From: Halobellus inordinatus
Lineage (GTDB): Archaea > Halobacteriota > Halobacteria > Halobacteriales > Haloferacaceae
Direction: 5' to 3'
DNA: 64,000 nt
Assembly: GCF_024464655.1 (NCBI RefSeq)
Contig: NZ_JANHAV010000001.1
Coordinates: 682,001 to 746,000 of the forward strand
The position numbers and the translations under genes are program-made. Below, one piece after another: positions 29,262 to 58,248 of the stretch (positions within the stretch are counted from its first letter, which is position 1; the number at the start of each line of letters is the position of its first letter). The notes under the pieces were generated by a model. That model searched no databases. It was not told the origin of the DNA and saw only the letters and a list, made by a program, of their open reading frames with translations.

Positions 29262-29381
29262 ACAGATTATGGGCGGTTTCCAGTCACCTCAGTTGATTAC
29301 TCTGTTCTGGTAAGATCGGTCTGAAATGGAGTATAACTACGTACCGGTTACTCTTTTTAGGCTACTCTGTCAGGATAGGAT

Positions 29382-32498: not shown

Positions 32499-32504
32499 TT
32501 TAGG

Positions 32505-38323: not shown

Positions 38324-41056
38324 TTAGGAGTAGAAGACGACGGGGCGGCGGTCGCCGCTGTGTTCGTCGTCGGGGAGGTGTTCGGCGAGGTCGTCGCGGG
38401 TGTCGTCGCCGAGGAGTTGGTTGAGGACGTCGATGGCCGAGGCGCGGAGGAGGGGTTTGTTGTCGTTGCCGCAGTTTTCGTCGAAGGTGCAGGCGGGGCA
38501 GCCGTTGGGTTGGCCGCAGTGGCAGTCGCGGAGTTGGTCGCGGGCGCGTTCGGCGAGGGCTTCGAAGTTCTCGTAGATGGCGCGTGCGAAGCCGAGGCCA
38601 CCGTCGACGCCGTCGTAGATGAACCAGCCGGAGGCGGTACGACCGGTGAGTTCTTGGGTGCGTTGTTCGAGGGCGTGGGTGGCGGCTTCGAAGGAGTCGC
38701 CGATAGAGTCGGTGATATCATCGTATTCCGGATGGCTGTAGTGGGTGTCCATCACGAGGGTTGCGAGGCCGCCGAGGTCGTTTTTGTCGACGCGGAGTTC
38801 GAGTGGGGCGGTTTGGATGGTGGCGTGTTCGGCGGCGTGGAGCCCAGCGATGTATCCGAGGTGGGCGATGCCGGTGTTTTCGGGATCAACGCCGGTTTCG
38901 ATGCCGTAATCCTGGTATTTGCGGGAGAGGGCGGTTTCGACGTCTTCGGGGACTTCGACCCAACAGAGCTGCGTGTCCATCAGGATCGGCGGAGTTTCGG
39001 TCGGGATTGCCTGTTGTTTCGGGTCGCTGTTACCGATGTAGAGCTGGTCGTAGGAGTGGTGGTGGACGAGCACGGTGCCGCGGCCGAAGTGGAGCATGAA
39101 CCCGTTGACCTCGCGGGATTCTTCTGATTCGGCGTCAAGGACGTTGACTTTGTTGCGGGTGCGCGTGTAGTACTCGCAGTTGACTGGTTTGAGTTCGATG
39201 ATGGGTTGCGGACGGTCTTCATCTAGGTTGACGACTTCGAACTGTTGGCCGTTCTGAAGGCGAACTGCGCCTTCATGATAGTCGCGGTAGGCGCGGTTCT
39301 GCTCGATTGGTTCTAGGTCAAGATCGTCGGGAAGACCCCATTTGTCGCGGTCAACGTTGTCTGCGAGTTGGAGACGGTAGTCCGTGCCGGTAGTCCCGTA
39401 CAGGTTGACGCGTGTCTGTGGGCGGCTCGGGCCAGAGTAGTGGACTGCGGCGTCGAGGTAGCCGTCGACGAAGCCGGCTTCGCGCCACATCTTGACCGCA
39501 GCACGAAGTCGGTCTTCATCGGCGAATGTCCCGATATCTGATTCGTCGAGGGCAATTTCGTCGGCCGCGGCGAGGACGTGGGTTGCGAAGACGGAATTGT
39601 TCGAGGTGTCGACAACGGCGTCTTCGACGTCGTTTTCGAGGAGGTATTCAGGATGGGTGAGGATGTACTGGTCGAGTGTGCGGTGATCGCCGACGAGGAC
39701 AGCGAGGCTGCGGCTCGCTTCGCGGCCGGCGCGACCGATGCGTTGCCAGAAGGATTGTCGCTGCCCTGGGTAGCCCATGAGGACGGTCGCGTCGAGGCTG
39801 CCGATGTCGATTCCGAGTTCGAGTGCGGAGGTCGTGGCGAGGCCGGTGAGGACACCGTTTTTGAACTGGTGTTCACGGGAGTGACGGGTTCGGCGACCGA
39901 GCCCAGCATTATACGCTTCTCTCCCGACGGTGGTCGAACGGTCGTATTCGCGGGGATTGTTCTGACGGTGCTCATTTGCCCGCTGGATGCTGAGTTCAGT
40001 GAGTTTGCGACTTTCGCAGAACAGTAACGTGCGAATGTCGTGCGAGGTCAGGTGGTTGAAGACTTTCGGCGCTTCGACGCTGGCTGGGACGCGTTCGGCG
40101 ACGAACTCCTCATCATCCTCCTCCATATCAGTCCCGTCGTCGATGTCGATATCGAACGATTCCTCTTCGGGCGTGGAGTCTCGGGTTTTGTCTCGCGGCG
40201 GGGGATTCCAAAGGATGACGTCGCGGGGGCCGTGCGGTGAGCCGTCATCGTCAATGACGGTCACGGGAGCGTTGATGAGCTCCTCGGAGTGATCGCGGGG
40301 GTTCCCGATTGTGGCGGAGGTGAGGACGTATTGCGGATCGCCGCCCCAGTAGTCGGCGACCCGCTGCAGACGACGGAGGATCCATGCGACGTGCATGCCT
40401 TCGATGCCGGTGTAGGTATGGGACTCGTCGATGGCGATGAGATTGAGGGCGCTGTAGAAGCGGCTCCACTTGTCGTGGTGTTCGAGGTAGAGGTTGAGCC
40501 CGGCGAAGTTCGTGAGGATGACGTCCGCTTGTTCTCGGATTTCTCGCCGCCCGTCCTGCGTGTCGCCGTCGTAGATCTCGACGCGGATGTCTAACCCGAG
40601 TTGGTCGTAGAGATCGTCGAGGGCTTCCTGCTGGTCTTTGGTAAGCGCCTTCATCGGGTACACGCACAGCGCGGTTGAGGCGTCGTTCTGTTCGGACGCT
40701 CTAGTTCCATCAGGGTTGAGGACGCCGGCGTCGAGGAGGTTCCGAGCGATTTGCAGGCCGTAGATGTGGGTTTTTCCGCTGGACGTCGAGGTCGTGACGG
40801 CGACGTTGTTGCCTGTTTCCAGTGCGTTGAGGGCGTCGGCCTGGTGGCTGAACAGGTTGTGCGGGTACGGCTCGGCGAGTTCCGGGCGGAGTACCTCTGC
40901 TGTCGGGACTGTGTTCGCAGGTTCAGCGGGTAGCTCGATAGTTTCGATGTACTCTGAATCCGGTGTGAGGCTGACGCGCGGGAACGTGTCGATGATGGTG
41001 TCCGCGTTAACGTCGGTGCTTGCGTTCGTGTCGGTGGTGGTGGTGTTGTCGCTCAT
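38324..41056 (-). CDS. DEAD/DEAH-box helicase with C-terminal DUF1998 (MrfA-like)
   Basis: A 910-residue protein. Motif I is TSSGKT near residues 91-96, Walker B AIDESH near 208-213, motif III TSATIGNP near 246-253, and QRIGRAGREA near 438-447 (motif VI). The C-terminus has a cysteine cluster (Cys 845, 847, 853, 856, 862) within a DUF1998-like domain, as in MrfA/YprA helicases that repair DNA crosslinks with the exonuclease MrfB. It is the last gene of the Argonaute operon, 2 bp after the stop of the exonuclease gene. Expected role: 3'-5' DNA unwinding that supplies single strands to the Argonaute or the exonuclease. Confidence 0.85.
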   Translation of the reverse strand: MSDNTTTTDTNASTDVNADTIIDTFPRVSLTPDSEYIETIELPAEPANTVPTAEVLRPELAEPYPHNLFSHQADALNALETGNNVAVTTSTSSGKTHIYGLQIARNLLDAGVLNPDGTRASEQNDASTALCVYPMKALTKDQQEALDDLYDQLGLDIRVEIYDGDTQDGRREIREQADVILTNFAGLNLYLEHHDKWSRFYSALNLIAIDESHTYTGIEGMHVAWILRRLQRVADYWGGDPQYVLTSATIGNPRDHSEELINAPVTVIDDDGSPHGPRDVILWNPPPRDKTRDSTPEEESFDIDIDDGTDMEEDDEEFVAERVPASVEAPKVFNHLTSHDIRTLLFCESRKLTELSIQRANEHRQNNPREYDRSTTVGREAYNAGLGRRTRHSREHQFKNGVLTGLATTSALELGIDIGSLDATVLMGYPGQRQSFWQRIGRAGREASRSLAVLVGDHRTLDQYILTHPEYLLENDVEDAVVDTSNNSVFATHVLAAADEIALDESDIGTFADEDRLRAAVKMWREAGFVDGYLDAAVHYSGPSRPQTRVNLYGTTGTDYRLQLADNVDRDKWGLPDDLDLEPIEQNRAYRDYHEGAVRLQNGQQFEVVNLDEDRPQPIIELKPVNCEYYTRTRNKVNVLDAESEESREVNGFMLHFGRGTVLVHHHSYDQLYIGNSDPKQQAIPTETPPILMDTQLCWVEVPEDVETALSRKYQDYGIETGVDPENTGIAHLGYIAGLHAAEHATIQTAPLELRVDKNDLGGLATLVMDTHYSHPEYDDITDSIGDSFEAATHALEQRTQELTGRTASGWFIYDGVDGGLGFARAIYENFEALAERARDQLRDCHCGQPNGCPACTFDENCGNDNKPLLRASAIDVLNQLLGDDTRDDLAEHLPDDEHSGDRRPVVFYS

Positions 41057-41058
41057 GG

Positions 41059-42606
41059 TTAGAAGTCAGTGAGGCCGGCTTGTTGTCCGGTTGCGCCGCC
41101 GGTGCCGCTATCGGTCATGTCCCGACGGGTGGCATTCGTGATTGCCTGGTAGACGTGCCAGAGCGCCCGGCAGTCATCCTCACAGTACGTCTTGTGGCGT
41201 TCCCAATCCAGTTCAGCTACTGGGGAGTCCGGGTTCCGCATAAATTCCTGGTATGCAGCCGCGGTTTGTGCCCCAGTCAGTCCGGTTCCGGCAGAATCGT
41301 AGCCGAGCGCGCGAGCGACATGGTCGAGTTTGTTCGTTCGACCGGGGAGGAGGGCGTTCCCGTCGCGGACGGCCCATTTGTACAGGTCGTAAGTCCAGAC
41401 GTCCTCCCATGCATCGACGTATTCGGGAAGGTGCTGTTCGAGGAACTGCGAGATATGTGGGTAGTCAAACTTGTACCCGTTCCACGTGAGCACGGTCCTG
41501 TCCTGGTGGTTGGCGATGAACCACGTTATGAACGCTTCGAGGACTGGCTTTGGATCCTTCGGGTGTTGCTTCTCGATGAACGCTTGATGCGTGTCGGTCG
41601 CCGGGTCGTAGACGCCGAGCTGCCAGATGATGGTTGGAGAAAGCCCGTCGGTTTCGATGTCGAGGCAGAGCGGCGGGCGGTCGTCGCGGGTCTTGACTGG
41701 CGTCTTGTTCGTGAGGACGATTGGTTCGCCTGAGTGGATGACGTCGGCGTGGGCGTGGATCTTCTCGGCTGTTGTCTGCCCGATTCCGGGGAGGTCGGTG
41801 AGAGTGCTGATTGCGAGGTTCTGGACATCGCTGGTTGTTTGACAGCCCTGTTTGCGGAGTCGCTGGGCCGTAGACTGTCCAACGCCGTTTAACGCTCTGA
41901 GGCCGAACTGGTCAGCATCGACAGCTTCTGCTGCGATGGTTCCGCGGGGCGTGCAGGTGTATTGGGCGAACATGGCACCGCTGTGCTCTGTTGCACCGAG
42001 TCCAGAGATGGGGACGTGGACTGACGAGTGGTTGTGTGGTAGCTCCCACTCGTGGTAGTACTCTGCTGGTTGACCGCCTGCGAGGACGGTGACTGGTTCG
42101 GGCAGGGTAGCGCTGATTGCCGCCAACTGATCGGCGTGTGGGAGGGTCGTGGAGAGGGTTGTTGTATCCCAATCGACAGTGAGTTTGGGGGCGAAGAGGA
42201 ACGTCGCCGCCTCGGAGCCTGTCTGCCGCTCACCTGATGCCAATTGCGTTTGGAGTTGAGGGAGGACGTCCCCGCTTTGGACGGCGAGAATATCTATCGT
42301 CCCGGGTGGTGGGGCGGCGTCGGGGGATTCGTGAACACCGGCGTCGGGGGAGTACCGGAAGTGGTGGACGCGGTTCCCGCCACGACCGAGTTGTGGGTGC
42401 AAGACGGGGATGTCGGGGGCGGCGTCACGGGCGGTGGCCTCTGCAGTCGGGGTTCGGGCTCCGGGGATCGTGATGAGCCCTGGATTGAAGTACTGGATGG
42501 CGTCCCGGACCGCGGGTTGTGATACGCGGTCGAGCGTTGATGCAGGGAGTGTCAACAACTCCAAGGGAGTATCGCCGTCCGTTGTCCAGTCAGAATCTCC
42601 TGTCAT
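41059..42606 (-). CDS. HhH-containing DEDDy exonuclease (MrfB/YprB-like)
   Basis: A 515-residue protein. The N-terminal about 230 residues are unrecognised. Two helix-hairpin-helix motifs follow (LNGVGQSTAQRL near 239-250; LPGIGQTTAEKI near 272-283), typical of double-strand DNA binding. The exonuclease has LDIETDG near 315-321, TWNGYKFDYP near 374-383 and YCEDDC with Tyr 474 and Asp 478, the DEDDy type. YprB/MrfB proteins partner with an MrfA-like helicase, and here the two genes are adjacent (2-bp gap). The Argonaute gene ends 9 bp upstream. Confidence 0.85.
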   Translation of the reverse strand: MTGDSDWTTDGDTPLELLTLPASTLDRVSQPAVRDAIQYFNPGLITIPGARTPTAEATARDAAPDIPVLHPQLGRGGNRVHHFRYSPDAGVHESPDAAPPPGTIDILAVQSGDVLPQLQTQLASGERQTGSEAATFLFAPKLTVDWDTTTLSTTLPHADQLAAISATLPEPVTVLAGGQPAEYYHEWELPHNHSSVHVPISGLGATEHSGAMFAQYTCTPRGTIAAEAVDADQFGLRALNGVGQSTAQRLRKQGCQTTSDVQNLAISTLTDLPGIGQTTAEKIHAHADVIHSGEPIVLTNKTPVKTRDDRPPLCLDIETDGLSPTIIWQLGVYDPATDTHQAFIEKQHPKDPKPVLEAFITWFIANHQDRTVLTWNGYKFDYPHISQFLEQHLPEYVDAWEDVWTYDLYKWAVRDGNALLPGRTNKLDHVARALGYDSAGTGLTGAQTAAAYQEFMRNPDSPVAELDWERHKTYCEDDCRALWHVYQAITNATRRDMTDSGTGGATGQQAGLTDF

Positions 42607-42615
42607 GGGTGTCTG

Positions 42616-45225
42616 TTAGATAAACCCGATCTTGTCTCGGAGTTTGTTCGTTGGTGGGAGGTGTTGGCGAGCGGCAGCGGCGCTTGCCAGGTCTGCGTAC
42701 ATCGTGGTGATTGGAAGGCGGGCAGTGGCGTTGGACGCGCCGATGTGCGCTTGTGACAGGAGGTAGGTTTGTGCGGCTAACGTCTCGATGGGAGTATCGC
42801 CGTGGACGCGTTCGACGGTGATGGGTTGGGGAAGTCCGGTGCTTTCTCTGCTGGCGAGGGTTTCGGGTTCGCCGAAGGTGGCGACGATGGCTTTGGGAAG
42901 GTCCTCGTAGATGGCTGCGGTCGCTTTCTGCGGCGTGTCGAAGTGAGCGCCGCTGTATTTCAGGACGCGGGCTGGGGCTTGTTTCCGGATTTCGACGACG
43001 TCGTACTTGACGTCCAGGTCGGAGAGGAATTGCTCGACGTCGCTGAGGTCTTCGTTGGCGAAGCCATCCCGGTGAATCGTGATGTGGTTCGGGTACCGGT
43101 CGTACCGAGTTCGGAAGCCCATCACCGCCTGCTTGACGATCTCTTTGAGTTCCTTCGGTGGGATTTTCTCCCCGGACTGCGGTCGGGATGACGTATAGCC
43201 GAGAACGGCCCCGTCAGCGTGAATCGCGGTGGTTGCGGCTGCGAGATGGATGTGATTCCCGTCGGCTGATTCGTCGTACTGATGGGTCACGTCGATACCG
43301 AGGTGGAGTTCAGAGTCCCCTGGCAACGCCCGCTCGATAGTGAACGGAATCCCGCCTGCAGCCGCAACCAATCCGAGGGCGATGTTGATGATCGTGAACC
43401 GTTCGTCGAGCGTCGCTTCGTGTGCGAACTGGCTGTTGAGGTCCTTCGTGGCGAGGACCTTCTTCACCTCGTCGTAGACACGTTCGGGATCTGCCGTGTC
43501 GAAGTACCCAGTGTTCTTCGGCGGGAGCGTGCAGAAGACGGCGTCGTAGTCGTGGTCGTCCGGGATTTCAGCGGCGAGCTCCATGCCGAGTTGGTCGGCT
43601 GACATCGTCGCGTCGAAGGTGACCTCTTCGACGCTGTCTGGCGGGGCTCCGATTTGTTCGAGTTTGCTTTGGAGCGTGGACCAGCCCCGTTGGATCCGGT
43701 CGTCCCGTTTTTCCATCCGAATGTGGCACACACGGAAGGGATCCGGTGCTTCGTACACTCCGAGGCGGGTGACGTCACTCGGGTGCGTCCCGGTCTGCCC
43801 GTCACTGAACTGGAGAACGTCTGCTTCCGGATCGAAAAGCCCCTGAACGGAGATGTTCTCATCCCCGAGCAGCGGGTCCGATCCGAACTCAACGGTGTGG
43901 CCGTCGAACTGAAGTGGGCCGAGTTCTTCGACGAAGCTCTCTGCGTTCGAGATGCACTGCTGAGCGGACAGGCGCGTATTGAGCCGTTGTTTCTCTGCGA
44001 AGTCCGGTGCGAATCGAGCGAGGTTCTCAGGATGGCCTTGGAGCGCGAGGAGCTCTGGTGGGAACGCCATCTCGGTCCCGTCGCCACGCTGGCGAACTGT
44101 CCAGATGACTTCCCGGTCCGCGTCCTCAATCTCGTTAACTTTCGCTGGATCGACCCAGGGTTCCTCTCGGTGATACTGAACGAGGCTCTTGTTGCCCTCG
44201 ATGTGGAGCTTGTCGGTGACGGTTTCTGGGCCGACGCCGATGACATACAGCCCCCTGTCTCGGTAGGAGGGTGTCACCCGGAGTCCGGGATGAATCTCGT
44301 CGTCGTCGAGTTGGTCGAGCGTCCGGTCTGAGAGGATCCGGTGGCGGTAATCGACGTGCAGGTAGGCGGCACGCGTGGGGAGCACCTCGACGGTGAGGTT
44401 GTACCGCTCGTGGAGCCGGAATCCTTCTTTCTCGATTACCGGGTCAATCTCCAGGATTTTATCGATGCCGTGGATGTCGTACTGGTCGCGTTTCGCGTCC
44501 TTCAGGACTTCACCGAGCATTTCACCCAGGATCTCCCGGTCATCCTCGTCCGCGTAGACGACCGGTCGGGTGCCGACCTCGTTGATTTCGAAGCGGGGAA
44601 GATCTACGCGTTCGTGCGCGAGTTTTACTAGGGACACGAGCTTGAACGCGCTGCCGACGACGACCGGTGTCACATCGAGTTGTTGCCGGACTTTGCGACG
44701 GGCCTTGTACGTCGCCCGGAGCGTGTTCTGCCCCGAGGGTCGGAATCCTCGCTTCGGAACGAGTTCGTACTCGTAGACGTCGTAGTCCGGCAGATCATCT
44801 GTGGCACGGAACGTCGTGAGACCGTGGTCTCCACTGTTGGCGGACGTGTCAGGGGTTTCGGCGAGCCCGTCTTCGAGGGCTTCCTCGGTAGTCGGGGGGC
44901 CCTCCATTTCGAGGAGTTTGGCATCGCTCTGGACGGTGAGGTTCTGATATTCCGTCCCGTCGTTTCCTTCGTCGATATCGTACTCGACAGCGGTGATGAG
45001 GTAAGTGGCTCCTCTGTCGTAGTCTTCGTCGTAGATCTCCGCTGGTGCGGAGTTCTTCCACATCGTGATGGTTCGGTCGTCACCGCCGCCATCTGTGAAT
45101 TTCAAGTTGCGGCGTGGGTACTGACCCTCGTTGTCGAAGACTGTGTCGAGCGTGAATCGAACGGCGTAGGTGTCTCCGACCGGTACGTCGTTGAGTGAGT
45201 TTTCGTCGAGGTTGATTGGTTTCAT
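42616..45225 (-). CDS. ago: Long prokaryotic Argonaute, NgAgo type, catalytic tetrad intact
   Basis: An 869-residue protein. The PIWI domain has Asp 645 (LGIDVTH), Glu 686 (QSGEKI), Asp 720 (HRDGF) and Asp 845 (MYADLA), a complete DEDD tetrad. MID-like residues include VYDEVKK and Gln near 599. Residues about 15-105 form an N-terminal OB-like domain (TMWKNSAP, TYLITAVEYD), as in Natronobacterium gregoryi Ago, which it also resembles across PIWI by recall. The start is ATG 45225, fixed by an ATGA overlap with the upstream DUF2797 gene; ORF-level position 45252 is rejected. Expected role: DNA-guided cleavage of DNA. Confidence 0.9.
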   Translation of the reverse strand: MKPINLDENSLNDVPVGDTYAVRFTLDTVFDNEGQYPRRNLKFTDGGGDDRTITMWKNSAPAEIYDEDYDRGATYLITAVEYDIDEGNDGTEYQNLTVQSDAKLLEMEGPPTTEEALEDGLAETPDTSANSGDHGLTTFRATDDLPDYDVYEYELVPKRGFRPSGQNTLRATYKARRKVRQQLDVTPVVVGSAFKLVSLVKLAHERVDLPRFEINEVGTRPVVYADEDDREILGEMLGEVLKDAKRDQYDIHGIDKILEIDPVIEKEGFRLHERYNLTVEVLPTRAAYLHVDYRHRILSDRTLDQLDDDEIHPGLRVTPSYRDRGLYVIGVGPETVTDKLHIEGNKSLVQYHREEPWVDPAKVNEIEDADREVIWTVRQRGDGTEMAFPPELLALQGHPENLARFAPDFAEKQRLNTRLSAQQCISNAESFVEELGPLQFDGHTVEFGSDPLLGDENISVQGLFDPEADVLQFSDGQTGTHPSDVTRLGVYEAPDPFRVCHIRMEKRDDRIQRGWSTLQSKLEQIGAPPDSVEEVTFDATMSADQLGMELAAEIPDDHDYDAVFCTLPPKNTGYFDTADPERVYDEVKKVLATKDLNSQFAHEATLDERFTIINIALGLVAAAGGIPFTIERALPGDSELHLGIDVTHQYDESADGNHIHLAAATTAIHADGAVLGYTSSRPQSGEKIPPKELKEIVKQAVMGFRTRYDRYPNHITIHRDGFANEDLSDVEQFLSDLDVKYDVVEIRKQAPARVLKYSGAHFDTPQKATAAIYEDLPKAIVATFGEPETLASRESTGLPQPITVERVHGDTPIETLAAQTYLLSQAHIGASNATARLPITTMYADLASAAAARQHLPPTNKLRDKIGFI

Positions 45226-46088
45226 TGTGCGGCCTCCGTTGCTGGGAGACATTCGGCAGGCGCTTCGACCGTGACCTGTTTCCCTTTCAGATGGTCGAAG
45301 TTCACGACAGCGTCCTCGGTCGCTAAGATCTGACCTCGGACTCCGAGAACCTCTGACTGTATCCCCTCGTCAAGGGTGAGCTCTGGAAGGGTGCTGACGG
45401 TCGCATCGTCCCCGGCGAAGTGAACCGGGAGTGAAACAATCCGGTCTTCGATGGTTGTCTCGTCACTGGGGAGTGTCGAGAACGGTTCCAGAGGTCCTGT
45501 TAGGACGTCCCGGCACGAATCAACGGCTTCCATGAGCGCGTTTTTGGGCTGGTCCAGCGCCTCGTACCACTCCTTCGTCGATTCGGTCGACACGACAGCC
45601 TCCAACGCGTCCTCAACGATCCCGGCGACACGACGATTCGGTGTCCGAGCGACGATCATGCCGTGAGTCGCGCCCTGTTCCGCCCAACGACTCACAGCGC
45701 GATCTGCTTGCGTGATTCCAGCCTTCACGCTGTCTTTGGCGACGAGGTAGACGACGAAGTTGTGCGCGCAGGACCGCCGTTTGAACGACGGGAACGGGCA
45801 GTCCTGATACTCGCATGACGTTCCGGGCGTGAAAACGCACTGCTGGAAGGGCGGCTTCGACTGGCACTCTTGACACGGGGAGTCGTCCGCTCGGTCCCCA
45901 CAGTGCTGGCACCGGAATCCGGGATGGACGTCGACGCGGATCTCTTCTCCGACGAGACCTGCGAGGTCAACCGGACCGTTCGTGTCTGCGAGGTACAGCC
46001 GTGGTTTCCCCCGAGACCAGGAGACCATCGTCGGGTGACCACTCACGGTCGCCCGAGAGTCCAGGTCGGCCAGTTGCTGAGCCGTCAT
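45222..46088 (-). CDS. DUF2797 family zinc protein
   Basis: A 288-residue protein. Cysteines cluster between residues 59 and 107 (CQHCGDR, PCQECQS, CEYQDCPF), giving two probable zinc sites. The following NFVVYLVAKDSVKAGITQ and VARTPNRRVAGIVEDALEAV resemble a GIY-YIG-like core. DUF2797 proteins are widespread in archaea and their role is unsettled. It overlaps its neighbours by 4 bp on both sides (ATGA with the 239-residue gene; ATGA with Argonaute), so it is translationally coupled to Argonaute and probably a functional partner. Confidence 0.75.
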   Translation of the reverse strand: MTAQQLADLDSRATVSGHPTMVSWSRGKPRLYLADTNGPVDLAGLVGEEIRVDVHPGFRCQHCGDRADDSPCQECQSKPPFQQCVFTPGTSCEYQDCPFPSFKRRSCAHNFVVYLVAKDSVKAGITQADRAVSRWAEQGATHGMIVARTPNRRVAGIVEDALEAVVSTESTKEWYEALDQPKNALMEAVDSCRDVLTGPLEPFSTLPSDETTIEDRIVSLPVHFAGDDATVSTLPELTLDEGIQSEVLGVRGQILATEDAVVNFDHLKGKQVTVEAPAECLPATEAAQ

Positions 46089-46804
46089 TTGTACCCCCCG
46101 AGAGTACCCTGAAAGTCAGTCGGGCTCCGGTACGGATCGATGATCTCATCGGTCAGATACCGCATCGCCTCTGCCTGAATCGCCATCTCGATTTCACGGC
46201 CATAGAGCGTGATGCGACCGGTGTCGTCGAACCCGACTTCGACCTCGATGTTCCTGTTCGGGAGATCAACACGAACCTGTTCGAATGTGTCCCCGAAGTA
46301 TTGCTCCCACCAGTCCGTGTCTCTCAGGTCACCCCGGTCTTGAGCCGACACGTAGTCCGGTCGTTCGCGTTTGTTCGGACTGACATCGACACGCTGGACG
46401 CGGCTGGATTCCTCGATGACCTTCCGAAGATCCTCTTCTTCGAACTCTATTGTCTCGAATTTCACGTCCTCGTCGAGAACCGCTGCGAGTGTCGTGAGAA
46501 TCTCCTGTTCGACCTCCTTCGTTGCCTTTGCGATGGCAACGTAGCCGTTCTGGAGAAAGATGACCGCGTACCGTTGGGCGCGTTTCGTTTGTTCGGTGCC
46601 TTCGAGCGTAGTTAGGTCGTAGTGCGTCTCACGACCGTATTCCGCCCAGCAGATGCCGTCTGTTCCCACTTTGAACGTCTGTGGAAGCATTCCGCTGCGA
46701 AGGTCGGCGTCCGAGTTGAATGCCGAGGTGGCCTCAATTCCGGCTTCGATTGCTTCCGTGTCGATGCTCTCGTCCCGTAGTTCCACGATCTTGTAGCTAG
46801 CCAT
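46085..46804 (-). CDS. Unknown protein of the Argonaute operon
   Basis: A 239-residue acidic protein of unrecognised family. The C-terminal half is strand-rich (QVRVDLPNRNIEVEVGFDDT, ITLYGREIEMAIQAEAM), and the middle has helices (QEILTTLAAVLDEDV). No catalytic motif is visible. It overlaps the AAA-winged-helix gene by 8 bp and DUF2797 by 4 bp, so tight co-expression is certain from layout. It may be the least understood part of the Argonaute system. Confidence 0.6.
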   Translation of the reverse strand: MASYKIVELRDESIDTEAIEAGIEATSAFNSDADLRSGMLPQTFKVGTDGICWAEYGRETHYDLTTLEGTEQTKRAQRYAVIFLQNGYVAIAKATKEVEQEILTTLAAVLDEDVKFETIEFEEEDLRKVIEESSRVQRVDVSPNKRERPDYVSAQDRGDLRDTDWWEQYFGDTFEQVRVDLPNRNIEVEVGFDDTGRITLYGREIEMAIQAEAMRYLTDEIIDPYRSPTDFQGTLGGYK

Positions 46805-47927: not shown

Positions 47928-47956
47928 CTCCTCAAACTATCCAAGTTACCCAAAAC

Positions 47957-47979
47957 TATTAAAACCTATTGCTTTTATT
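47957..47979. promoter_or_regulatory. Divergent promoter pair between Argonaute and Mre11 operons
   Basis: TATTAAAA (47957-47964) reads as TTTTAATA on the minus strand and serves the AAA gene. TTTTATT (47973-47979) lies about 24 bp before the Mre11 ATG and serves the plus strand. Both boxes sit in a 72-bp gap, so the two operons are likely co-controlled. Confidence 0.55.
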
Positions 47980-47999
47980 GACTATCTGTGTTAGCCACC

Positions 48000-49508: not shown

Positions 49509-52216
49509 AGATTACTGAGGTAGCGTTAGAGGATATCAAGTCGTACGAGGGGCGGACAGTCGTGCCGATTGAAGGCGGTGTGACCGCAATCCTCGGTGAG
49601 AACGGCGCGGGGAAATCGACGATCCAGGAAGCGATTGGGTTCGCGCTGTTCGACTCGCTGCCGTTCAACAACAAGGACTTCGTGCGGGAGGGCGCGAGCT
49701 CCGGGACTGTCGAAGTCACCTTCGTGCAGGAGACGGCAAAGGGACAGCAGCGCTTCCGCGTGACGCGGTCGGCTGGTCGATCAAACTACGGCGTGCACCG
49801 GTACGATTCCGAGGGTGACGAGTGGATCGACCAGGACATCGATTCCAAATCCCAACTCATCAAATGGTTGTGCGCCCGGTTCGATGTTGAGGACAAAGAG
49901 GAGTTGCAGAGCTTGTGGGAGTCGTGTATTGGCGTTCCACAGACGCGGTTCCTCTCTGACTTTGCGGACAATCCGAAGCCTCGGAAGGAGAAGTTCGATG
50001 CGCTGCTGAATCTGGATGCGTACGAAGAGTCCTGGGATCGGCTCAAGGACATTCCGGCTGCGATTGAGCAGGAGGAACAGAAGCTCCGTGAGGAGATTGC
50101 AGGGCTCACGAGTACCGTACAGGATCTGCCTGACAAGCGGGCGAAAGCGGAATTGCTGGCCGACGAGGTCGCATCAATCGAAGCCGAGATTGAGCGTAAG
50201 ACCGACGATCTGATTGAGAAAGAAACGGAACACGAAGAGTTAGAAGCCGTCCAGGATGAAATCGACAGCCTCGAACAGGAGGTGCGGTCACAGGAGCAGG
50301 AGATCGAGGCTACCGAGCGAGAGCTAGAAACTGCAGAGAAGGAACTTCGCGCCGCTCAGAAAGCACAGGAGAAATGTGAGGAGAACCGTGAGGGGTATCG
50401 CCAGCACGAGGAAGCGAGTGAGCGGCTGGACGAGCTGGAGGAACGAGAGAACGAGCGGGACACGCTTGCTGAGCGGAAAGACGAGCAGAAACAGGAGGTC
50501 TCGTCGGTCGAATTCGAGGTAAACCAGCTTGAAGATGACTTAGAGACGCTGCAGTCGGCGCAGGAAACGCTGGAGGAGCGCGAGGACGAGAAACAGCGGT
50601 ACGAAGAACTCGACGAGAAGATCAACTCGCTACAGCAGCGTGAGGGCGAAGTCAAGGAACTACAGGAACGAATCGACGATCTCGCCGGAGATATCAGCGA
50701 GAAGCAAGAGAAGGTGGAGTCGCTCGAAGCGAAAGTTGAGGCCATCGAGGAAGAGTGGGAGGCAACGACGCGTCCGGGAGAACTTGACGAGAAGATTAAC
50801 GAGCGGAAGGCGCGCCGGCAGCAACTGAAGAACGAACGGGAACGGCTCGAAGAGCAGTTGGAGCGGCTGCGAGATACGGATGTGGATGCGCCGTGTCCGA
50901 CGTGTGACCGACCACTGAAGGAGGAACACCGGTCGGACGCAATCGACCAGCGCGAAGAACGAATCGAAGACATCGACACAGAACGTAAGGAGCTCAGCGA
51001 GGAGCTCTCCGATCTACGCGACCGTCGGGAGGAGGCCCGAAACGTCAAGCAACGTGCCGATAAGCTCCCGGTTCACCGTGAGAAGATCGAATCGTTGGAA
51101 GGAGAGATCGAGGCTCTCCAGTCAGAGAAGTCGGAGACGGAGAAGACCCTAGAGGAACTCGAAGAGGAACTGGCGGAACTGCCAGAACTCGAAGCAGAAC
51201 GGGATGAGCTGCAGGAAGCGTATGACGAGTACGAGACTGCGGAGTTCCGAGTGCAGGAGCACGCGGACGTCCCTGACGAATTAGAGGAGAAACGGGCAGA
51301 GCTTGATGCTGCCAACTCGAAGTTGGAGGATATCAACGACGAGTTGGCGGAATACGAAGGGCTGGACGAGAAACTGGCCGAAGTCAAGGAGACACTGGAG
51401 AAGACCGAGTCGGCGTATCAGACGTACATCAAGCATGAGCAACAGGCCTCCCAGGTAGAGGAACGGCAACAGGCCGTCAACGAGACGGAAGAGGAACTGG
51501 CCGAACTCGAAGATGCCCTTGAGGAGACGAAAGCCGAACTCGAAGAGACGAAAGCAGCGTTCGACGAGGAGCGGCTTCAGGCGCTTGAGTCGGACATCGA
51601 GGACATCAAAGGCGAGATAGAGCGAGCGAAAGGCTCGCTCGAAGAAAAGAGGGAAAATCTCAGCGAGACGCGCGAGGAAATCCAGCGCTTAGAGACGGCG
51701 TTGGAGGAGCGGCAAGAGAAGCTCCAACAGTTGAAGGAGCTGAAAGCCGATCACCAGTTCGCGGAATGGGTCCGGGAGAATGTTCGGGAGGCAGGGCCGA
51801 AGATGCGAGAGATCATCACCGACCGGATCGGGGCGCGGGCGAACGAGTTGTTCCGGACGATCCGCGGTGCCTCCGCAGAAACGCTTGAGTGGACGAGTGA
51901 TTACGAGATCGTCGTCCACGACGCGGACGTGAAGAAGTCGTTCTCGACGCTAAGTGGTGGTGAGAAGATGGCGGCTGCACTGGCGGTGCGGCTTGCCATC
52001 CTCGAACAGCTGGCGTCGGTCGGCGTCGCGTTCCTTGACGAGCCGACGGCGAACCTCGACCGGCAGAAGAAACGGAATTTGGTCTCGCAGCTGAAGCAAC
52101 TGGATAGCTTCGAGCAGCTCACCGTGATCAGTCACGACGAGACGTTCGATTCGATGACGGACTACACGATCTCCGTGACGAAAGACCGGCAGACGTCGGA
52201 GGTGACGGTGAATTAA
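49505..52216 (+). CDS. rad50: Rad50-type SMC ATPase
   Basis: A 903-residue protein. Walker A is GENGAGKST (31-39). A long coiled coil runs from about 160 to 760, interrupted by the zinc hook CPTC at Cys 464 and Cys 467. The signature LSGGEKMAAA and Walker B VAFLDEPTANLD lie near 813-850. It pairs with Mre11 for ATP-driven DNA-end tethering and processing. The stop overlaps the NurA start by one base (TAATG). Confidence 0.95.
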   Translation: MKITEVALEDIKSYEGRTVVPIEGGVTAILGENGAGKSTIQEAIGFALFDSLPFNNKDFVREGASSGTVEVTFVQETAKGQQRFRVTRSAGRSNYGVHRYDSEGDEWIDQDIDSKSQLIKWLCARFDVEDKEELQSLWESCIGVPQTRFLSDFADNPKPRKEKFDALLNLDAYEESWDRLKDIPAAIEQEEQKLREEIAGLTSTVQDLPDKRAKAELLADEVASIEAEIERKTDDLIEKETEHEELEAVQDEIDSLEQEVRSQEQEIEATERELETAEKELRAAQKAQEKCEENREGYRQHEEASERLDELEERENERDTLAERKDEQKQEVSSVEFEVNQLEDDLETLQSAQETLEEREDEKQRYEELDEKINSLQQREGEVKELQERIDDLAGDISEKQEKVESLEAKVEAIEEEWEATTRPGELDEKINERKARRQQLKNERERLEEQLERLRDTDVDAPCPTCDRPLKEEHRSDAIDQREERIEDIDTERKELSEELSDLRDRREEARNVKQRADKLPVHREKIESLEGEIEALQSEKSETEKTLEELEEELAELPELEAERDELQEAYDEYETAEFRVQEHADVPDELEEKRAELDAANSKLEDINDELAEYEGLDEKLAEVKETLEKTESAYQTYIKHEQQASQVEERQQAVNETEEELAELEDALEETKAELEETKAAFDEERLQALESDIEDIKGEIERAKGSLEEKRENLSETREEIQRLETALEERQEKLQQLKELKADHQFAEWVRENVREAGPKMREIITDRIGARANELFRTIRGASAETLEWTSDYEIVVHDADVKKSFSTLSGGEKMAAALAVRLAILEQLASVGVAFLDEPTANLDRQKKRNLVSQLKQLDSFEQLTVISHDETFDSMTDYTISVTKDRQTSEVTVN

Positions 52217-53481
52217 TGCCAATTGACAAGCGGGGGGTCGCCAGCGAGTTAGAAGCCAACGTCGAGACGATTGAAGCGTATCTAGAAGACGACTCCGGAA
52301 TCGTCGAACGATACCAGAATGCATTCGAGCGGCTCCCGGACGAGTGGACGAGCCGTGAGATTCGAACGGCGTTACAGGACACGTCGTATCCCGGCGCGTA
52401 CCCAACGGATGGGTTCGATGATGCTGGTCGCATCATCGTTCCATATCCGGAGAGTGACGGCTGGGAAAACCATGAGGAGGTCAACGAGTGGGCGCGCGAC
52501 ATCGTCCGAGATGTGCCCGTAATGGCTGTCGACGGGTCACAGCTCCCGCCGACCACGCAGTTCAACGTCCCGGTCGCGTACGTGCAATCGGCGTGGGCGG
52601 TGAATCATCACCACGCGGAAGGCCGACTTGACCGAGGCGTCGAAGGACGGCTACTGACGCCTGACGAGGTGACACAAGAATCGGAGGACGGCGATTACCG
52701 GTTCGTCGATTCGCAGCTTGTCGGTCATCATCGCTACGAACACGAGGGGCAACTCCTGATCGAGAAGTTGTCGGATCTGGCCGCTGCTCGTGATGCGGGC
52801 GACATCGAACGCACGCCGGTCGTGTTCTACGACGGGCCGTTGATCGCGTCGTTTGCGAACCCGCTAAAACCCGAAACCCGAGAACGATACCTCTCGACGT
52901 TGAGTCGAGTAATTGCGGCGAGTCAGCACCACGAAATTCCACTGGTGGGATACGTTGCTGGGTCGAGCGCAACGGAACTGGTGAAAATGACGCGACTCCT
53001 GTGGCGCGAGGAGTTCGAAGATGATCGCGTCATTCCGGACGCGCACGTGCTGACAGAGTTGATGAGTCCGTGGGGAGACATCACGCTCCCGTTCATCTCG
53101 AAACGTGACGGGAGTATTGACGCCTTACAGGCAACATACGAGGGAGAGACGTACGAGTTCCGCGACGATATCCTGTTCACGTACCTGAATGTGCCGCCAG
53201 GCGCTGGGCTTGACCGTATCGAGTTCCCCGGGTGGCTCTGCCGCAGCGACGGTCCTGACGGATATGAGTCGATGTTCGAGTACACCGTCGAGATCGTCCG
53301 AGCGGAGGCCGGTATCGGGCGTGGCTATCCGGAAATCCTCCAGCAGGTGGATAGCGATGCGGTACTGGATCATCAGGATCGGCAACAGTTCCAGCGGGTC
53401 GTGCAGCGCTGGGCCGAATCGAACGACGTCCCGTTAGAATGGAACGCCAAAGCACTTAGCAAGGAACTCCGCCGCCGATGA
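52216..53481 (+). CDS. nurA: NurA-domain 5'-3' nuclease
   Basis: A 421-residue protein. Motif I is MAVDGSQL with Asp 106 and the second acidic element is FYDGPLI with Asp 206; the C-terminal YPEILQQVDSDAVL completes the NurA pattern. NurA works with HerA to resect DNA ends for Mre11-Rad50 in archaea. It overlaps rad50 by one base. The protein has about 100 residues before motif I, longer than minimal NurA. Confidence 0.9.
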   Translation: MPIDKRGVASELEANVETIEAYLEDDSGIVERYQNAFERLPDEWTSREIRTALQDTSYPGAYPTDGFDDAGRIIVPYPESDGWENHEEVNEWARDIVRDVPVMAVDGSQLPPTTQFNVPVAYVQSAWAVNHHHAEGRLDRGVEGRLLTPDEVTQESEDGDYRFVDSQLVGHHRYEHEGQLLIEKLSDLAAARDAGDIERTPVVFYDGPLIASFANPLKPETRERYLSTLSRVIAASQHHEIPLVGYVAGSSATELVKMTRLLWREEFEDDRVIPDAHVLTELMSPWGDITLPFISKRDGSIDALQATYEGETYEFRDDILFTYLNVPPGAGLDRIEFPGWLCRSDGPDGYESMFEYTVEIVRAEAGIGRGYPEILQQVDSDAVLDHQDRQQFQRVVQRWAESNDVPLEWNAKALSKELRRR

Positions 53482-53554
53482 TGAACGCTTTCGCCACGGC
53501 GACGACTGAAGCACCGCTCACTCGACTACTCCGAAGCACCACCGAGGTAAACCT

Positions 53555-54220
53555 ATGACAGAATCAGCAACAGAACTCGACACCCCGGATCTCGACTCAT
53601 GTGTCCGGATTGGGAGCATCGTTTCCTCGAACAGCCATCTCGACTACGTTGTCGAGATCTTCAAAGAGCGAGACTGTGACCGCCCGCCAGAGCTCCACGA
53701 GCGGGAGTTCGGGCAACCCGTCTTCATCAAGAAAGTCATCGACGGCACGGAGCACGCGGTTATGGGCGTGATCTACGACACGAAGCTCGTCGACCCTGAC
53801 CAAGGCCGCACTGGCCCGCGGCTAGCCCAAGACGACCAAGCACAGTTCACGCCCGGATACATCGAGGAACGAACGACACTCGCCGGCGTGGCGCTCCTCG
53901 GTACGGCGGTCGTGACCGATGATCGGACGATTGCGGATCCAACGCATCGGATGCCGCGATGGACGCTAGAGGTAGACGACACGGTCTACCACTGTCCGGA
54001 TGAGGTGACCGTCTCCTTCCACACTGTCGACGGACAGATCCAGCTGGCTTACCTCGACCGACTCATCGACATCGCGGGTGACCTCGGTGCTGAAGTCATC
54101 GTCGCACTGATCGACCGGCTCCGACGGATGCTCCCTGAGGACGACCCGAACCAGCGGGTACTGGACGTAGTGGAGCAAAACATCGAGTGGCAGGCGCACG
54201 AGCGTCGGGGGGTTGTCTGA
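53555..54220 (+). CDS. HAS-barrel-like accessory protein
   Basis: A 221-residue protein. SCVRIGSIVSSNSHLDYVVE and VMGVIYDTKLVD resemble the HAS barrel that precedes HerA motors, here as a separate protein. The C-terminus is helical (LDRLIDIAGDLGAEVIVALI). It shares TGATG with herA, so both are coupled. The role may be as a HerA adaptor or ring-assembly factor. Confidence 0.6.
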   Translation: MTESATELDTPDLDSCVRIGSIVSSNSHLDYVVEIFKERDCDRPPELHEREFGQPVFIKKVIDGTEHAVMGVIYDTKLVDPDQGRTGPRLAQDDQAQFTPGYIEERTTLAGVALLGTAVVTDDRTIADPTHRMPRWTLEVDDTVYHCPDEVTVSFHTVDGQIQLAYLDRLIDIAGDLGAEVIVALIDRLRRMLPEDDPNQRVLDVVEQNIEWQAHERRGVV

Positions 54221-55863
54221 TGTCCGGGAAGCAATCGGTCGTCGGAACCGTCGCCGGACCTGGAGAAGACCCGAATGAGTTCGTCTTCGTCACCCCTGCG
54301 GACAAGTCAATCAAGACGGGGGAGTTCATCACCTACACTGTCTCCGTCGATGGAGAGAACCGGTCTGTGTTTGCCCGCGTGACGAACCGCGAATTGATTC
54401 GCGGACTTCCCGACGGTTTCCTCGCAGATCCGGAAGTTGGTCCAGATACCGTCGCAGCAACGCTCGGAGTACCGACCGACGACACCGAATTGTACCGGCT
54501 GACGGCGACGGTCATCGGGTACTACGACACCGATATGACCACGTTCGCCAATCCGCGACAGCTCCCGTCTCCGGGAACGCCGTTGTCGATTGCGCCGGAT
54601 CAGCAGCTGGAAACAGTCCTACCGAACCTCGGGTGCGAGACGGACAGCGCAGACGTGACGGAGCTGGACGGAACTGCACACCTGGGGTGGTTATTGAATC
54701 GGCCGTCCGAAGCGACGAATATCCACATTCCAATCAAGGAATTCGCCTCAACGCACCTAGCGATCCTCGCATCCACCGGCAGCGGGAAATCGTACACAGC
54801 GTCCGTACTCATCGAGGAGATGATGCGGCCCGGTTCCCGCGCGTCTCTCCTCGTGTTCGACCCGCATGGCGAGTACGACAGCCTCGCGGACATACAGGGA
54901 CACGACGCATTCCAAGGAGAGGATGGGTACGACCCGGACGTCGTGTACTACGATCCCGAGCGGCTTCGCGTTCGCATTTCCGAATTGGACATTGGCGACG
55001 TTATGGCCGTCTTGGACAATCCGAGCAATCGGATGCAAGAGCGACTGTCGACGGCATGGCGTGCGATGCAGCGGCGCGAAAGCCGAACGTGGGGCGTCGA
55101 TGAACTCATCAATGAAATGGAAGCGAGATACGGGGATGACGACGCGAGTGTCGGGGCCTTAGAGTGGCGTCTCCGCCGGTCGATAGAGCGGAACGATCTG
55201 TTCCACCCTGAGGACAACGTCCCGCTGGACGAAATCGTGGATCCTGGTCAGTGTACCGTCCTGCAGATGGATACGCTGGATCGATGGAACCAGCAACTCA
55301 TCACGACTGTCCTGTTGCGACGGATGTATCGAGAACGACTCGATGCCGTGCGAGACAGGGACTCTGAAATCGGTCACCCGATCTTTGCGCTGTTCGAAGA
55401 AGGGCATCGGTTCGCACCGGCTTCCGGTGACGCACCGTCACTCGATATTATGCGCACAATCACATCCGAGGGCCGTAAGTTCGGGTTCGGACTGGGCATC
55501 ATCAGTCAACGTCCTTCAAAGATCGACCAGGACGTGCTGTCGCAATGTGGCACCCAGATCTCGATGCAAATCAAGAACCCGAACGACCAAGACGCGATCA
55601 AGAATTCTGTCGAGGCTGCAGGTGAAGATGTACTCCGTGAGTTACCCGGCCTGACGCCCGGACAAGCGGTGGTTTCTGGTGATGCGATGAACACGCCAGC
55701 GCTGATTCAAGTTCGGCGTCGGCGTACGGAGCACGGGGCAGAGAGTCCGGATGTCATTGAGGCTTGGCGTGAGGCGTACGATCAGCGCCAGCGGGAACCA
55801 GCTCAATCGGAGTCCGCAGACTTCGGTGAAGGAGATTCAACGGGGGTCCAGAGCCTTGATTAA
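54220..55863 (+). CDS. herA: HerA-type hexameric DNA translocase
   Basis: A 547-residue protein. A HAS-like barrel forms the first 140 residues. Walker A is ASTGSGKS (Lys 190), followed by LLVFDPHGEYD; Walker B is IFALFEEGHRF (Glu 393-Glu 394); the sensor and arginine-finger region follows around IISQRPSKID. HerA pumps DNA and, with NurA, resects ends. I chose ATG 54220, which overlaps the previous stop by one base; the frame extends upstream to 54187 without better content. Confidence 0.95.
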   Translation: MSGKQSVVGTVAGPGEDPNEFVFVTPADKSIKTGEFITYTVSVDGENRSVFARVTNRELIRGLPDGFLADPEVGPDTVAATLGVPTDDTELYRLTATVIGYYDTDMTTFANPRQLPSPGTPLSIAPDQQLETVLPNLGCETDSADVTELDGTAHLGWLLNRPSEATNIHIPIKEFASTHLAILASTGSGKSYTASVLIEEMMRPGSRASLLVFDPHGEYDSLADIQGHDAFQGEDGYDPDVVYYDPERLRVRISELDIGDVMAVLDNPSNRMQERLSTAWRAMQRRESRTWGVDELINEMEARYGDDDASVGALEWRLRRSIERNDLFHPEDNVPLDEIVDPGQCTVLQMDTLDRWNQQLITTVLLRRMYRERLDAVRDRDSEIGHPIFALFEEGHRFAPASGDAPSLDIMRTITSEGRKFGFGLGIISQRPSKIDQDVLSQCGTQISMQIKNPNDQDAIKNSVEAAGEDVLRELPGLTPGQAVVSGDAMNTPALIQVRRRRTEHGAESPDVIEAWREAYDQRQREPAQSESADFGEGDSTGVQSLD

Positions 55864-55956
55864 GCGAGGGCAGCGGTTCGAGACGGTCGTTGTGGAGCGT
55901 GACTACCGTCTTGACTCCGCGGGAATTCCACTAATCGGGTAAACGAAGGCAGAACT

Positions 55957-58248
55957 ATGGATGAGATAACAGCGAACATTTCGTTTGACAAGTTCGCGGA
56001 CATGCCGGAATTCTACGGTTCCGGTGAGGCGGGGTATCGGTTGGTGATGGTGAAAAAGCGTGAGGACTTTCTCGACCTGTTCGAGGGGGCCCGCCACGTA
56101 GATGCGGTGACGTACGCTGAGACGCCGGAACTGATGGTCCGGATGCTGACCGAGTATGACATCGATTCACTCGATGTGCTGGTCGGGAATGCTAACGACT
56201 ACGCCAATCAGGTCAACGATGTCTCAACCGCGCGGTCGCTCGTTCAGCTCCGGCAGGACGACCGGCTGACTGTTCGACTGAAGAACCGAAAGATCGTCCA
56301 CTCGAAAATGTACCGTATCGTCATGCCGGACGATACGGTGAAGCTCGTTCATGGGTCCGCGAACCTATCCGTTAACTCGTGGGAGTACCACACGAACCAG
56401 ATCTCGGTCATCACTACCGAAGTCGGGACGGAGCTCGATGAGGAGTTTGCAGCGTTTATCGACGAGTACCGAGAACGATACAGCAGCCAGACGCTTCTTG
56501 AAGGGCTGGTCGAAGCCATCGAAGACGCAGACACTCCCGAAGAGCGCGAAAACCGCATCGAGTACTGGGTCGGATCTGGAGATTTAGACGTAAGCGATAC
56601 GGCCGCGCTCAACCAAGATGCGACGGAGGATCTGAAGGAGATCGCAGATCGAGTAACGGCAGCAGTCGATGACCCTGAGGAAGCGGATGAATCAGTTGCA
56701 TTCATCGATGAGCCGGAGAAAGCCGACCAGACGGTCGTCAAACCAGATGGGTCAGGTGACGACGATGACACCGATCCGAACGAACCTTCGGGAACAGAGG
56801 GTGATAGCGAGGAATCACCGGATGTGGGGCTTGTCGAATCAGACAACGAAACGGCCCTCACCGAGACGTTAGACCGGCCCCGAGTTCGGACGCCAGAGAA
56901 GAAAATTCGAATGGGGACTAGTAAAGTAGACAGGGATGTCGCCGACGAGTTCAGCTCTACTCTCCGTTCCCGCGGCGCGACTGTCGAGGATCACAGTATC
57001 ACAGCTCCGCTGAGCGCCTACAACAACCAAGTTCGGGAATCAACAGAGATCCCCACCATGTCCGTCGTCCCCGAAGCCGAACAGGTCATCATCGGCGATG
57101 ATGAGGACCTGATTTTAGTCGCTACGGATCCACCGACTCCCGAGGTTCTGGACCATTGCCTCGATACCATTGAGTCCTACGTCGAGACCGTCAAAAACCA
57201 CGGGTACACCCAGACACCGACCGCCGTAATGGCTCAGATGTACGAAGCGTTCCTCTACGGCTTCTGGGCCCCGTTCGCCAACCAGTACGCTGAGGCACTC
57301 TCGTCCCCGTCGCGGACCCTCGACAACGTCCTACAGCACCTGTACATCGAAGGGAACAGCGACGCCGGAAAGGATAAACTCACGGAATACATCCTCCGCC
57401 TGGTTTCGGACAACACAGTCATTTCTGGAGTTGATGCAGACGACGTGGGTGTTGATGAGATTCGCGGAGTTCGGGAGTGGGACACCTGTTTCCCGTATGC
57501 GATCATCGACGCGGAGAAAGGCAAGATCGAAGGGTGGAGCCCAATCCGAAACTACTGGGGTGATTGGACGCCGACCAGTGTCGATCAGCCGTGTCTGATT
57601 TTCACGACTAACGATTCGCTTCCGAAATCGGAGTTCCGGAACCGAATGAAGATCCTCAGTATGGACGTGTCGTTCCCTTCGAATCCAGAAGACCCTGGGT
57701 TCCATGAGGCGCAAGACGATCTCGCAGAAGTGTTAGAGCGAGAAAACCCGATATTCAGCTACGTGGCTCGCCGGATGCTAGCAGAGCAGCCGTGGACCGA
57801 AGGCAATGGCACCGTGGAAGACGTCCGCCAGATCTTCTGTGACTTCTACGAGGAGGCTGGCCGAGAACCACCGGAGTATTTCCCTGCTAATGAGCCAGCG
57901 GAACAGATGTACGATACAGGGCGGCTCAAATGGCAGCGCGACATCCAGGGAGGCCGTGTCGAGTTCGAATCGGAACCCGATGGGATGAACGCTGACTTTG
58001 ACCGCGAGGATTGGGAAGTCTACGACTACGAGAAACGACTGGACAAGCGGTTCATGTCCGATAAATCTGGGACGAGTGTCTACATCGGTGCACCGAAGGA
58101 ATTTGCCGAGTGGGTCGGCTACTCGGTAGACGAACTACTCAACGGACCCGCAGAAAATGGTGAGACTACCGACCAGCCGGCGGAATCTGACGCAACTCCT
58201 GAAGAAACAGACTCGCCTGGATTCTTCCGACGGCTACTCGGCAGCTGA
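55957..58248 (+). CDS. PLD-like (HKD) nuclease fused to a P-loop ATPase-like domain
   Basis: A 763-residue protein. The N-terminus has one phospholipase-D-type motif: His 115, Lys 117 (IVHSKMY) and GSANLS at 133-138. Residues about 190-310 are an acidic linker. The C-terminal half has a degenerate P-loop GNSDAGKD (467-474), a Walker-B-like CFPYAIIDAE and a sensor-like LIFTTNDS near 548, resembling D5/SF3 or AAA-type motors. It lies 93 bp behind herA and is probably the last gene of that operon. Nuclease activity is inferred. A single HKD suggests dimerisation for catalysis. Confidence 0.65.
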   Translation: MDEITANISFDKFADMPEFYGSGEAGYRLVMVKKREDFLDLFEGARHVDAVTYAETPELMVRMLTEYDIDSLDVLVGNANDYANQVNDVSTARSLVQLRQDDRLTVRLKNRKIVHSKMYRIVMPDDTVKLVHGSANLSVNSWEYHTNQISVITTEVGTELDEEFAAFIDEYRERYSSQTLLEGLVEAIEDADTPEERENRIEYWVGSGDLDVSDTAALNQDATEDLKEIADRVTAAVDDPEEADESVAFIDEPEKADQTVVKPDGSGDDDDTDPNEPSGTEGDSEESPDVGLVESDNETALTETLDRPRVRTPEKKIRMGTSKVDRDVADEFSSTLRSRGATVEDHSITAPLSAYNNQVRESTEIPTMSVVPEAEQVIIGDDEDLILVATDPPTPEVLDHCLDTIESYVETVKNHGYTQTPTAVMAQMYEAFLYGFWAPFANQYAEALSSPSRTLDNVLQHLYIEGNSDAGKDKLTEYILRLVSDNTVISGVDADDVGVDEIRGVREWDTCFPYAIIDAEKGKIEGWSPIRNYWGDWTPTSVDQPCLIFTTNDSLPKSEFRNRMKILSMDVSFPSNPEDPGFHEAQDDLAEVLERENPIFSYVARRMLAEQPWTEGNGTVEDVRQIFCDFYEEAGREPPEYFPANEPAEQMYDTGRLKWQRDIQGGRVEFESEPDGMNADFDREDWEVYDYEKRLDKRFMSDKSGTSVYIGAPKEFAEWVGYSVDELLNGPAENGETTDQPAESDATPEETDSPGFFRRLLGS

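Follow-up and report, generated by a model that had tools for sequence, protein, structure and literature searches.

In a 64,000-nucleotide stretch of the Halobellus inordinatus genome (hereafter the window), we found that an operon encoding an NgAgo-type Argonaute lies divergent from an operon encoding an accessory Mre11-Rad50 together with NurA and HerA, and that pairings of this sort recur, with exchangeable parts, among haloarchaea. We see about an even chance that the locus is a defence module in which the Argonaute and a DUF2797 protein act with a dedicated end-processing machine that would supply guides, degrade cut DNA, or both. The literature that we searched holds no description of an Argonaute paired with Mre11-Rad50-NurA-HerA, nor of any system with the whole gene set; an earlier sequence-only reading of this DNA had likewise known of none.

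Gene content of the locus

The block comprises 12 intact open reading frames (38324-58248) on an 837-kb contig, arranged as two divergent operons. The minus-strand operon runs AAA-wHTH, Unk239, DUF2797, Argonaute, MrfB, MrfA, and the plus-strand operon runs Mre11, Rad50, NurA, HAS-like, HerA, PLD-ATPase. The sequence-only reading had called the same two six-gene operons; all 12 frames proved open where it placed them, and its domain assignments hold.

38324-41056, minus strand: MrfA/YprA-like superfamily 2 helicase with an MZB zinc-binding domain (Pfam DEAD 1.4e-21, Helicase_C, MZB 5e-15)
41059-42606, minus strand: MrfB/YprB-like HhH and RNase_H_2 (DnaQ-fold) exonuclease (Pfam RNase_H_2 1.5e-27, HHH_5)
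42616-45252, minus strand: NgAgo-type long-A Argonaute (Pfam Piwi 6.6e-16; PADLOC pAgo 1154 bits); likely start 45225 (M10)
45222-46088, minus strand: DUF2797 protein (Pfam 4e-26)
46085-46804, minus strand: Unk239, a 239-aa protein (no Pfam match at E ≤ 10)
46797-47927, minus strand: AAA ATPase with a C-terminal winged helix (Walker A GPSGIGKT, Walker B IVCIDD; MarR/ArsR-type wHTH); likely start ATG at 47918
47928-47999, no strand: divergent intergenic region, putative two-way promoter, with conserved core CAAAACTATTAAAAC
47988-49508, plus strand: accessory Mre11 (Metallophos 1.2e-11; best PDB match Mre11 1ii7); conserved ATG at 48000
49505-52216, plus strand: accessory Rad50 (NCBIfam NF003034 235 bits versus Rad50_Halo 164)
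52216-53481, plus strand: NurA nuclease (Pfam NurA 3.3e-24)
53555-54220, plus strand: HAS-barrel-like protein between nurA and herA, kept in nearly all NurA-HerA cores
54187-55863, plus strand: HerA hexameric translocase (DUF87 1e-35; STGSGKS)
55957-58248, plus strand: AgaP-family PLD nuclease with a C-terminal P-loop ATPase domain (PLDc_2; HSK115, GSAN133)

Mre11, Rad50, NurA and HerA are encoded in one operon and carry active-site motifs in all four proteins, those of NurA judged by family profile only. The motifs of Mre11 (DxH, GDxxH, GNHD, GHxH) and Rad50 (Walker A, CPTC zinc hook, LSGGE, DEP) are intact, and HerA matches the NCBIfam helicase_HerA model at 4e-49, under the model cut-off. 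From these features the four proteins form a putative end-resection complex. The gene between nurA and herA stands where the sequence-only reading put a HAS-barrel-like protein; the label itself is one of resemblance only, as Pfam returned nothing even at E ≤ 10. In the minus-strand operon, the MrfA-like helicase (GKT at 94, DESH) is 92-94% identical between the window and other copies of the block. The third motif of the MrfB-like exonuclease is Y-x3-D (DEDDy-like); B. subtilis MrfB is given as DEDDh (PMC11194089).

The gap between the operons, put at 72 bp by the sequence-only reading, has that length (47928-47999) with a TTG start of the wHTH protein and the conserved Mre11 ATG at 48000, and measures 81 bp from the conserved wHTH ATG at 47918. 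It is conserved at ~72-81 bp and contains a 15-base core (CAAAACTATTAAAAC) that was identical in the seven loci aligned; it may act as a promoter in both directions. Overlaps of 1-8 bp, proposed for both operons, do not run throughout: there are gaps of 2 bp (MrfA/MrfB), 9 bp (MrfB/Argonaute), 73 bp (NurA/HAS) and 93 bp (HerA/PLD).

The block lies in a defence island, with a fused type I HsdM-HsdS, an HsdR-like gene and an EVE-AAA_5 (McrB-like) gene upstream (window positions 23569-33896). EVE/McrB-like proteins also flank cores that have no Argonaute (L121), as does an McrB-like AAA protein in L115. An additional reading frame at 486-1568 of the window resembles the helicase portions of DpdJ and MkoA, two defence proteins.

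The Argonaute and its DUF2797 neighbor

The catalytic DEDD tetrad of the window Argonaute is intact in the alignment (D654, E695, D729, D854), and the protein falls in a fully supported clade of 15 that includes L151 and L154, so that its description as an NgAgo-type Argonaute with intact DEDD stands. It is 40% identical to L151, which we take, from its N-terminal sequence, to be NgAgo of N. gregoryi; G269 is presumably the N. gregoryi genome. DUF2797 lies directly upstream of the L151 Argonaute, as in the window, and adjoins every member of the clade on an intact contig as a constant upstream neighbor. The NgAgo literature that we searched does not mention it. What sets L151 apart from the window is that its Argonaute is not adjacent to a resection core and that NgAgo has been studied alone; in G269, a NurA-HerA core with an AgaP-like PLD protein lies ~26 kb from the Argonaute.

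DUF2797 has eight invariant cysteines in the alignment and a pattern (VYLV...VKVGIT...R...E) that we compared with the GIY-YIG fold, although its predicted model had a pLDDT of only 33. Predicted models of both DUF2797 and Unk239 were too poor for a fold search. Several Argonaute genes of other loci are damaged: a Mutator-type transposase reading frame interrupts one (L088:8221-12470), another is frameshifted (L087) and a third has a stop (L072). The catalytic tetrad is lost in the haloarchaeal Piwi proteins L158, L160, L168, L169 and L170, four of the five being near AddA-like genes.

An accessory Mre11-Rad50

The sequence-only reading had raised the possibility that the window's Mre11-Rad50 is the only copy in the genome and thus housekeeping. 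A separate housekeeping pair is present elsewhere (G000:C11:369614-373828), scoring 640 and 1339 bits with the haloarchaeal equivalog models. The window proteins fail the NCBIfam haloarchaeal equivalog cut-offs, Mre11 with about 47-50 bits against 550 and Rad50 with about 160-164 bits against 1000, and the window Rad50 is nearer a Pyrococcus-type model than haloarchaeal Rad50. These scores and the separate true pair rule out a housekeeping repair operon. NurA of the window core type is patchily distributed: 26 of the family's 170 genomes carry it, as do 36 of the order's 392.

Conservation and mobility of the block

Contrary to the possibility that the operons are rarely adjacent in relatives, the whole block occurs across three haloarchaeal families, in no fewer than six genomes: the window (Haloferacaceae), Halopiger djelfimassiliensis, Natrinema hispanicum, G390, G256 and G294. 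The Argonaute is 92-96% identical among these carriers, and one further fragment carries the Argonaute side alone. The PLD gene is the least fixed member; its orientation is reversed in H. djelfimassiliensis, the roughly 2.4 kb next to herA showed no such gene in G256 and G294, and its position in N. hispanicum lies beyond the stretch read. A relative, L067, has the block without Argonaute and DUF2797, with Mre11 and Unk239 frameshifted. In another locus, a 1645-aa protein with no Pfam match (L066:4713-9647) is divergent from mre11 where the Argonaute operon would be.

The resection half of the block has been exchanged. DNA identity between N. hispanicum and the window is 85-94% from mrfA to mre11 and 68-79% from rad50 on, and from rad50 onward N. 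hispanicum is nearer to the core of G269 than to that of the window, marking a crossover at mre11/rad50. In a tree of Rad50-NurA-HAS-HerA, Argonaute-linked cores occur in at least three places, and near-identical Argonaute operons sit beside at least three distinct core lineages. The identity drop and the core tree together show that the resection half was swapped while the partnership was kept. The block is a horizontally moving haloarchaeal module whose two operons travel together.

Pairing of Argonautes with end-processing genes

We labelled the neighborhoods of about 105 loci with profiles built in this analysis and found several further architectures. In two loci (L079, L084), the core belongs to a single same-strand run that also includes, between Mre11 and an Unk239 about 40% identical to that of the window, a very divergent Piwi protein (Pfam 1.9e-5, under the family cut-off; residues D, E, D, Q). 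An APAP-type Argonaute lies directly upstream of the same core in L132 (with PLD) and L072 (with MrfAB beyond; the Argonaute is stop-broken). Relatives of the window Argonaute with DUF2797 are joined to a very different Mre11-Rad50-NurA-HerA in L086, L087, L147, L148 and L157, where the sequence read stops inside Rad50 or shortly after it in L147 and L157, and where the identity of the NurA family (f28), weak by profile-profile comparison, is settled by a Pfam match in one member (L157). Argonautes also occur with Mre11-Rad50 and a superfamily 1 helicase (L090, L135), with Mre11-Rad50 and PLD (L092), and with MrfAB (L095, L096, L153, L159). Many others, mostly of the f8-Ago-PLD arrangement, are found with an AddA-like UvrD-PDDEXK protein, a separate PDDEXK nuclease and a UvrD-like protein. 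Of the architectures that join unrelated Argonautes to Mre11-Rad50, three include NurA-HerA as well.

Two side features of these loci are of note. An AAA_14-DUF4143 ATPase lies divergent beside most APAP-type Argonautes (L098:6704-8377 and about 24 other loci, family f8), and the literature searched does not describe it as partnering an Argonaute. An AddAB-like run of Ago-PLD-(UvrD-like)-(PDDEXK)-(UvrD+PDDEXK) occurs at L098:11378-19924 and in about 15 relatives from several haloarchaeal families.

Overall, 49 of 60 Argonaute loci had Mre11/Rad50, an AddA-like protein or MrfAB within 10 kb, and 11 had no such machine. Linkage was 44/55 once the five loci found solely through NurA were removed, 39/55 if MrfAB alone was not counted, and 19/24 when Argonautes were clustered at 70% identity. 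The Piwi search of the order missed the window Argonaute, so the numbers of Argonautes that it gave are lower bounds. Type I restriction-modification loci of the same order, treated alike, had Mre11-Rad50, AddA-like or MrfAB genes in 0 of 20 cases (Fisher p about 1e-10 for loci and 3e-8 for clusters), the control being small and of one kind and related loci not being independent. On the Argonaute tree, partner labels require 15 changes, so pairings were gained or lost many times.

An Argonaute lies within ~10 kb of only a minority of the NurA-HerA cores, so the core must also have a role outside this pairing. This counts against a joint module, as do the 11 Argonaute loci with no such machine, the N. 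pellirubrum APAP, which works unlinked to one, and the L067 relative, albeit with its frameshifts. Several cores are accompanied by other defence genes (GmrSD, OLD, Eco57I, McrB-like), placed close by or divergent from mre11, and some carry an AgaP-like PLD protein without an Argonaute (L071, L073, L074). The core serves as a reusable module that has the Argonaute among its partners. On such grounds, Mre11-Rad50-NurA-HAS-HerA might be an independent defence or repair cassette that merely shares defence islands with Argonautes. We consider this clearly unlikely given the absence of the machine from the restriction-modification loci, the single same-strand runs of Argonaute with Mre11-Rad50-NurA-HerA in other architectures, and the survival of the pairing through recombination.

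The joint system proposed by the sequence-only reading therefore survives in part. Adjacency in several genomes, an accessory Mre11-Rad50 and a recurrent pairing, in several cases within one same-strand run, speak for it, but a fixed, obligate 12-gene set does not hold. Argonaute-free cores and the swapping of Argonaute partners (AddA-like helicase-nucleases, MrfAB, or AgaP alone) indicate a modular pairing instead.

Comparison with known systems

The nearest known system is APAP of N. pellirubrum, in which AgaP and Ago jointly restrict plasmid and virus (PMC11442185). Both loci have a haloarchaeal long-A Argonaute with DEDD and an AgaP-family PLD protein; that of the window is co-linear throughout with N. 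pellirubrum AgaP (29% identity in the N-terminal PLD domain). However, the Argonautes are just 25% identical and belong to different clades, and the window adds DUF2797, Unk239, AAA-wHTH, MrfAB and Mre11-Rad50-NurA-HAS-HerA. In APAP, ago and agaP are adjacent in one operon, whereas the window PLD gene (55957-58248, plus strand) is the last gene of one operon and the Argonaute gene (42616-45252, minus strand) belongs to the other. The spacing from HxK to GSxN is 52 residues in N. pellirubrum (~50 expected), while in the window these motifs are at 115 and 133, 18 apart. APAP, which has been studied experimentally, works without a linked resection machine.

AgaP is toxic on its own (PMC11442185), Mre11-Rad50 and HerA-NurA serve in recombination repair, and PLD and a resection machine occur together at many APAP-type loci. 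The resection set could hence serve self-protection, repairing host breaks made by the Argonaute or the toxic PLD nuclease. This is very unlikely in our estimation: the set is also found at Argonaute loci without a nearby PLD gene (L086, L090, L134), and a housekeeping Mre11-Rad50 is already in the genome.

Thermophilic archaea have a herA-mre11-rad50-nurA repair operon with the same four enzymes. The window set differs from it as an accessory second copy with the order mre11-rad50-nurA-HAS-herA, an extra HAS-like gene and a patchy distribution; the herA-mre11-rad50-nurA linkage is also described in PMC2288612. The MrfAB (YprAB) repair pair shares the MZB-domain helicase and RNase_H_2 exonuclease with the window, where the pair is embedded in an Argonaute operon; a survey of YprA does not mention Argonaute (PMC12458937). 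Ryazansky et al. (2018) reported that pAgo operons can contain nucleases and UvrD-type helicases, and do not mention Mre11, Rad50 or HerA (PMC6299218).

With PADLOC, the pAgo was the sole strong match and the rest were partial, so the locus was not assigned to a known defence system. DISARM, Druantia and Dpd were rejected, as full-length DrmAB, DruE and Dpd-type matches were absent and helicase-domain matches were partial. A viral origin was also set aside, no relative of DUF2797 or the window NurA having been found in IMG/VR.

End resection has been tied to Argonaute guides before (SeAgo, LrAgo, CbAgo, TtAgo; PMC10269773). RecBCD processing of breaks is one source of the small DNAs of SeAgo and LrAgo, and AddAB co-precipitates with TtAgo (PMC10269773). 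In those cases a housekeeping machine of the host aids in trans, whereas the window encodes a dedicated accessory machine beside the Argonaute.

Proposed function

For the module that we propose, we infer the following biochemical steps, together with their order, direction of flow, guide type and target. A dedicated machine would be used instead of reliance on that of the host. The accessory Mre11-Rad50 would capture free or blocked ends, whether viral, from collapsed plasmid or virus forks, or made by restriction or by the Argonaute. HerA-NurA and the MrfA-MrfB helicase-exonuclease would then unwind and shred the strands, and the resulting single-stranded pieces may become guides of the Argonaute, in the way that bacterial pAgos are loaded with RecBCD products. 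The guided Argonaute would cut further copies of the same DNA, feeding new ends into the loop, and the AgaP-like PLD nuclease and exonucleases would complete the destruction.

It is also conceivable that the Argonaute comes first, using guides of another origin, and that the resection set destroys the cut DNA without supplying guides. This predicts the same gene linkage, and it accords with MrfAB and NurA-HerA being classic helicase-nuclease degraders and with AgaP being essential for plasmid restriction in APAP (PMC11442185). We regard it as somewhat unlikely; clades with an inactive Piwi protein (L158, L160, L169, L170) still have AddA-like machines nearby, an observation compatible with guide supply or recruitment and with cutting alike.

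The source of guides for prokaryotic Argonautes in their own hosts is an open question, and the evidence to date concerns mostly foreign Argonautes in E. coli, on which the RecBCD of that host acts. In haloarchaeal loci, evolution has repeatedly placed a candidate guide machine beside an Argonaute, and with different machines, which opens the question to testing in tractable haloarchaea. More tentatively, and with less than even confidence, we suggest that a swappable dedicated guide-maker (Mre11-Rad50-NurA-HerA or AddA-like) plays the part of Dicer for DNA-guided haloarchaeal Argonautes, and that NgAgo-type proteins have been tested alone without it. NgAgo is much debated, and the pairing may bear on the conflicting results obtained when it was used alone. 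Most haloarchaea surveyed pair their Argonautes with an end-processing set, suggesting a source of guides or a way of destroying invading DNA.
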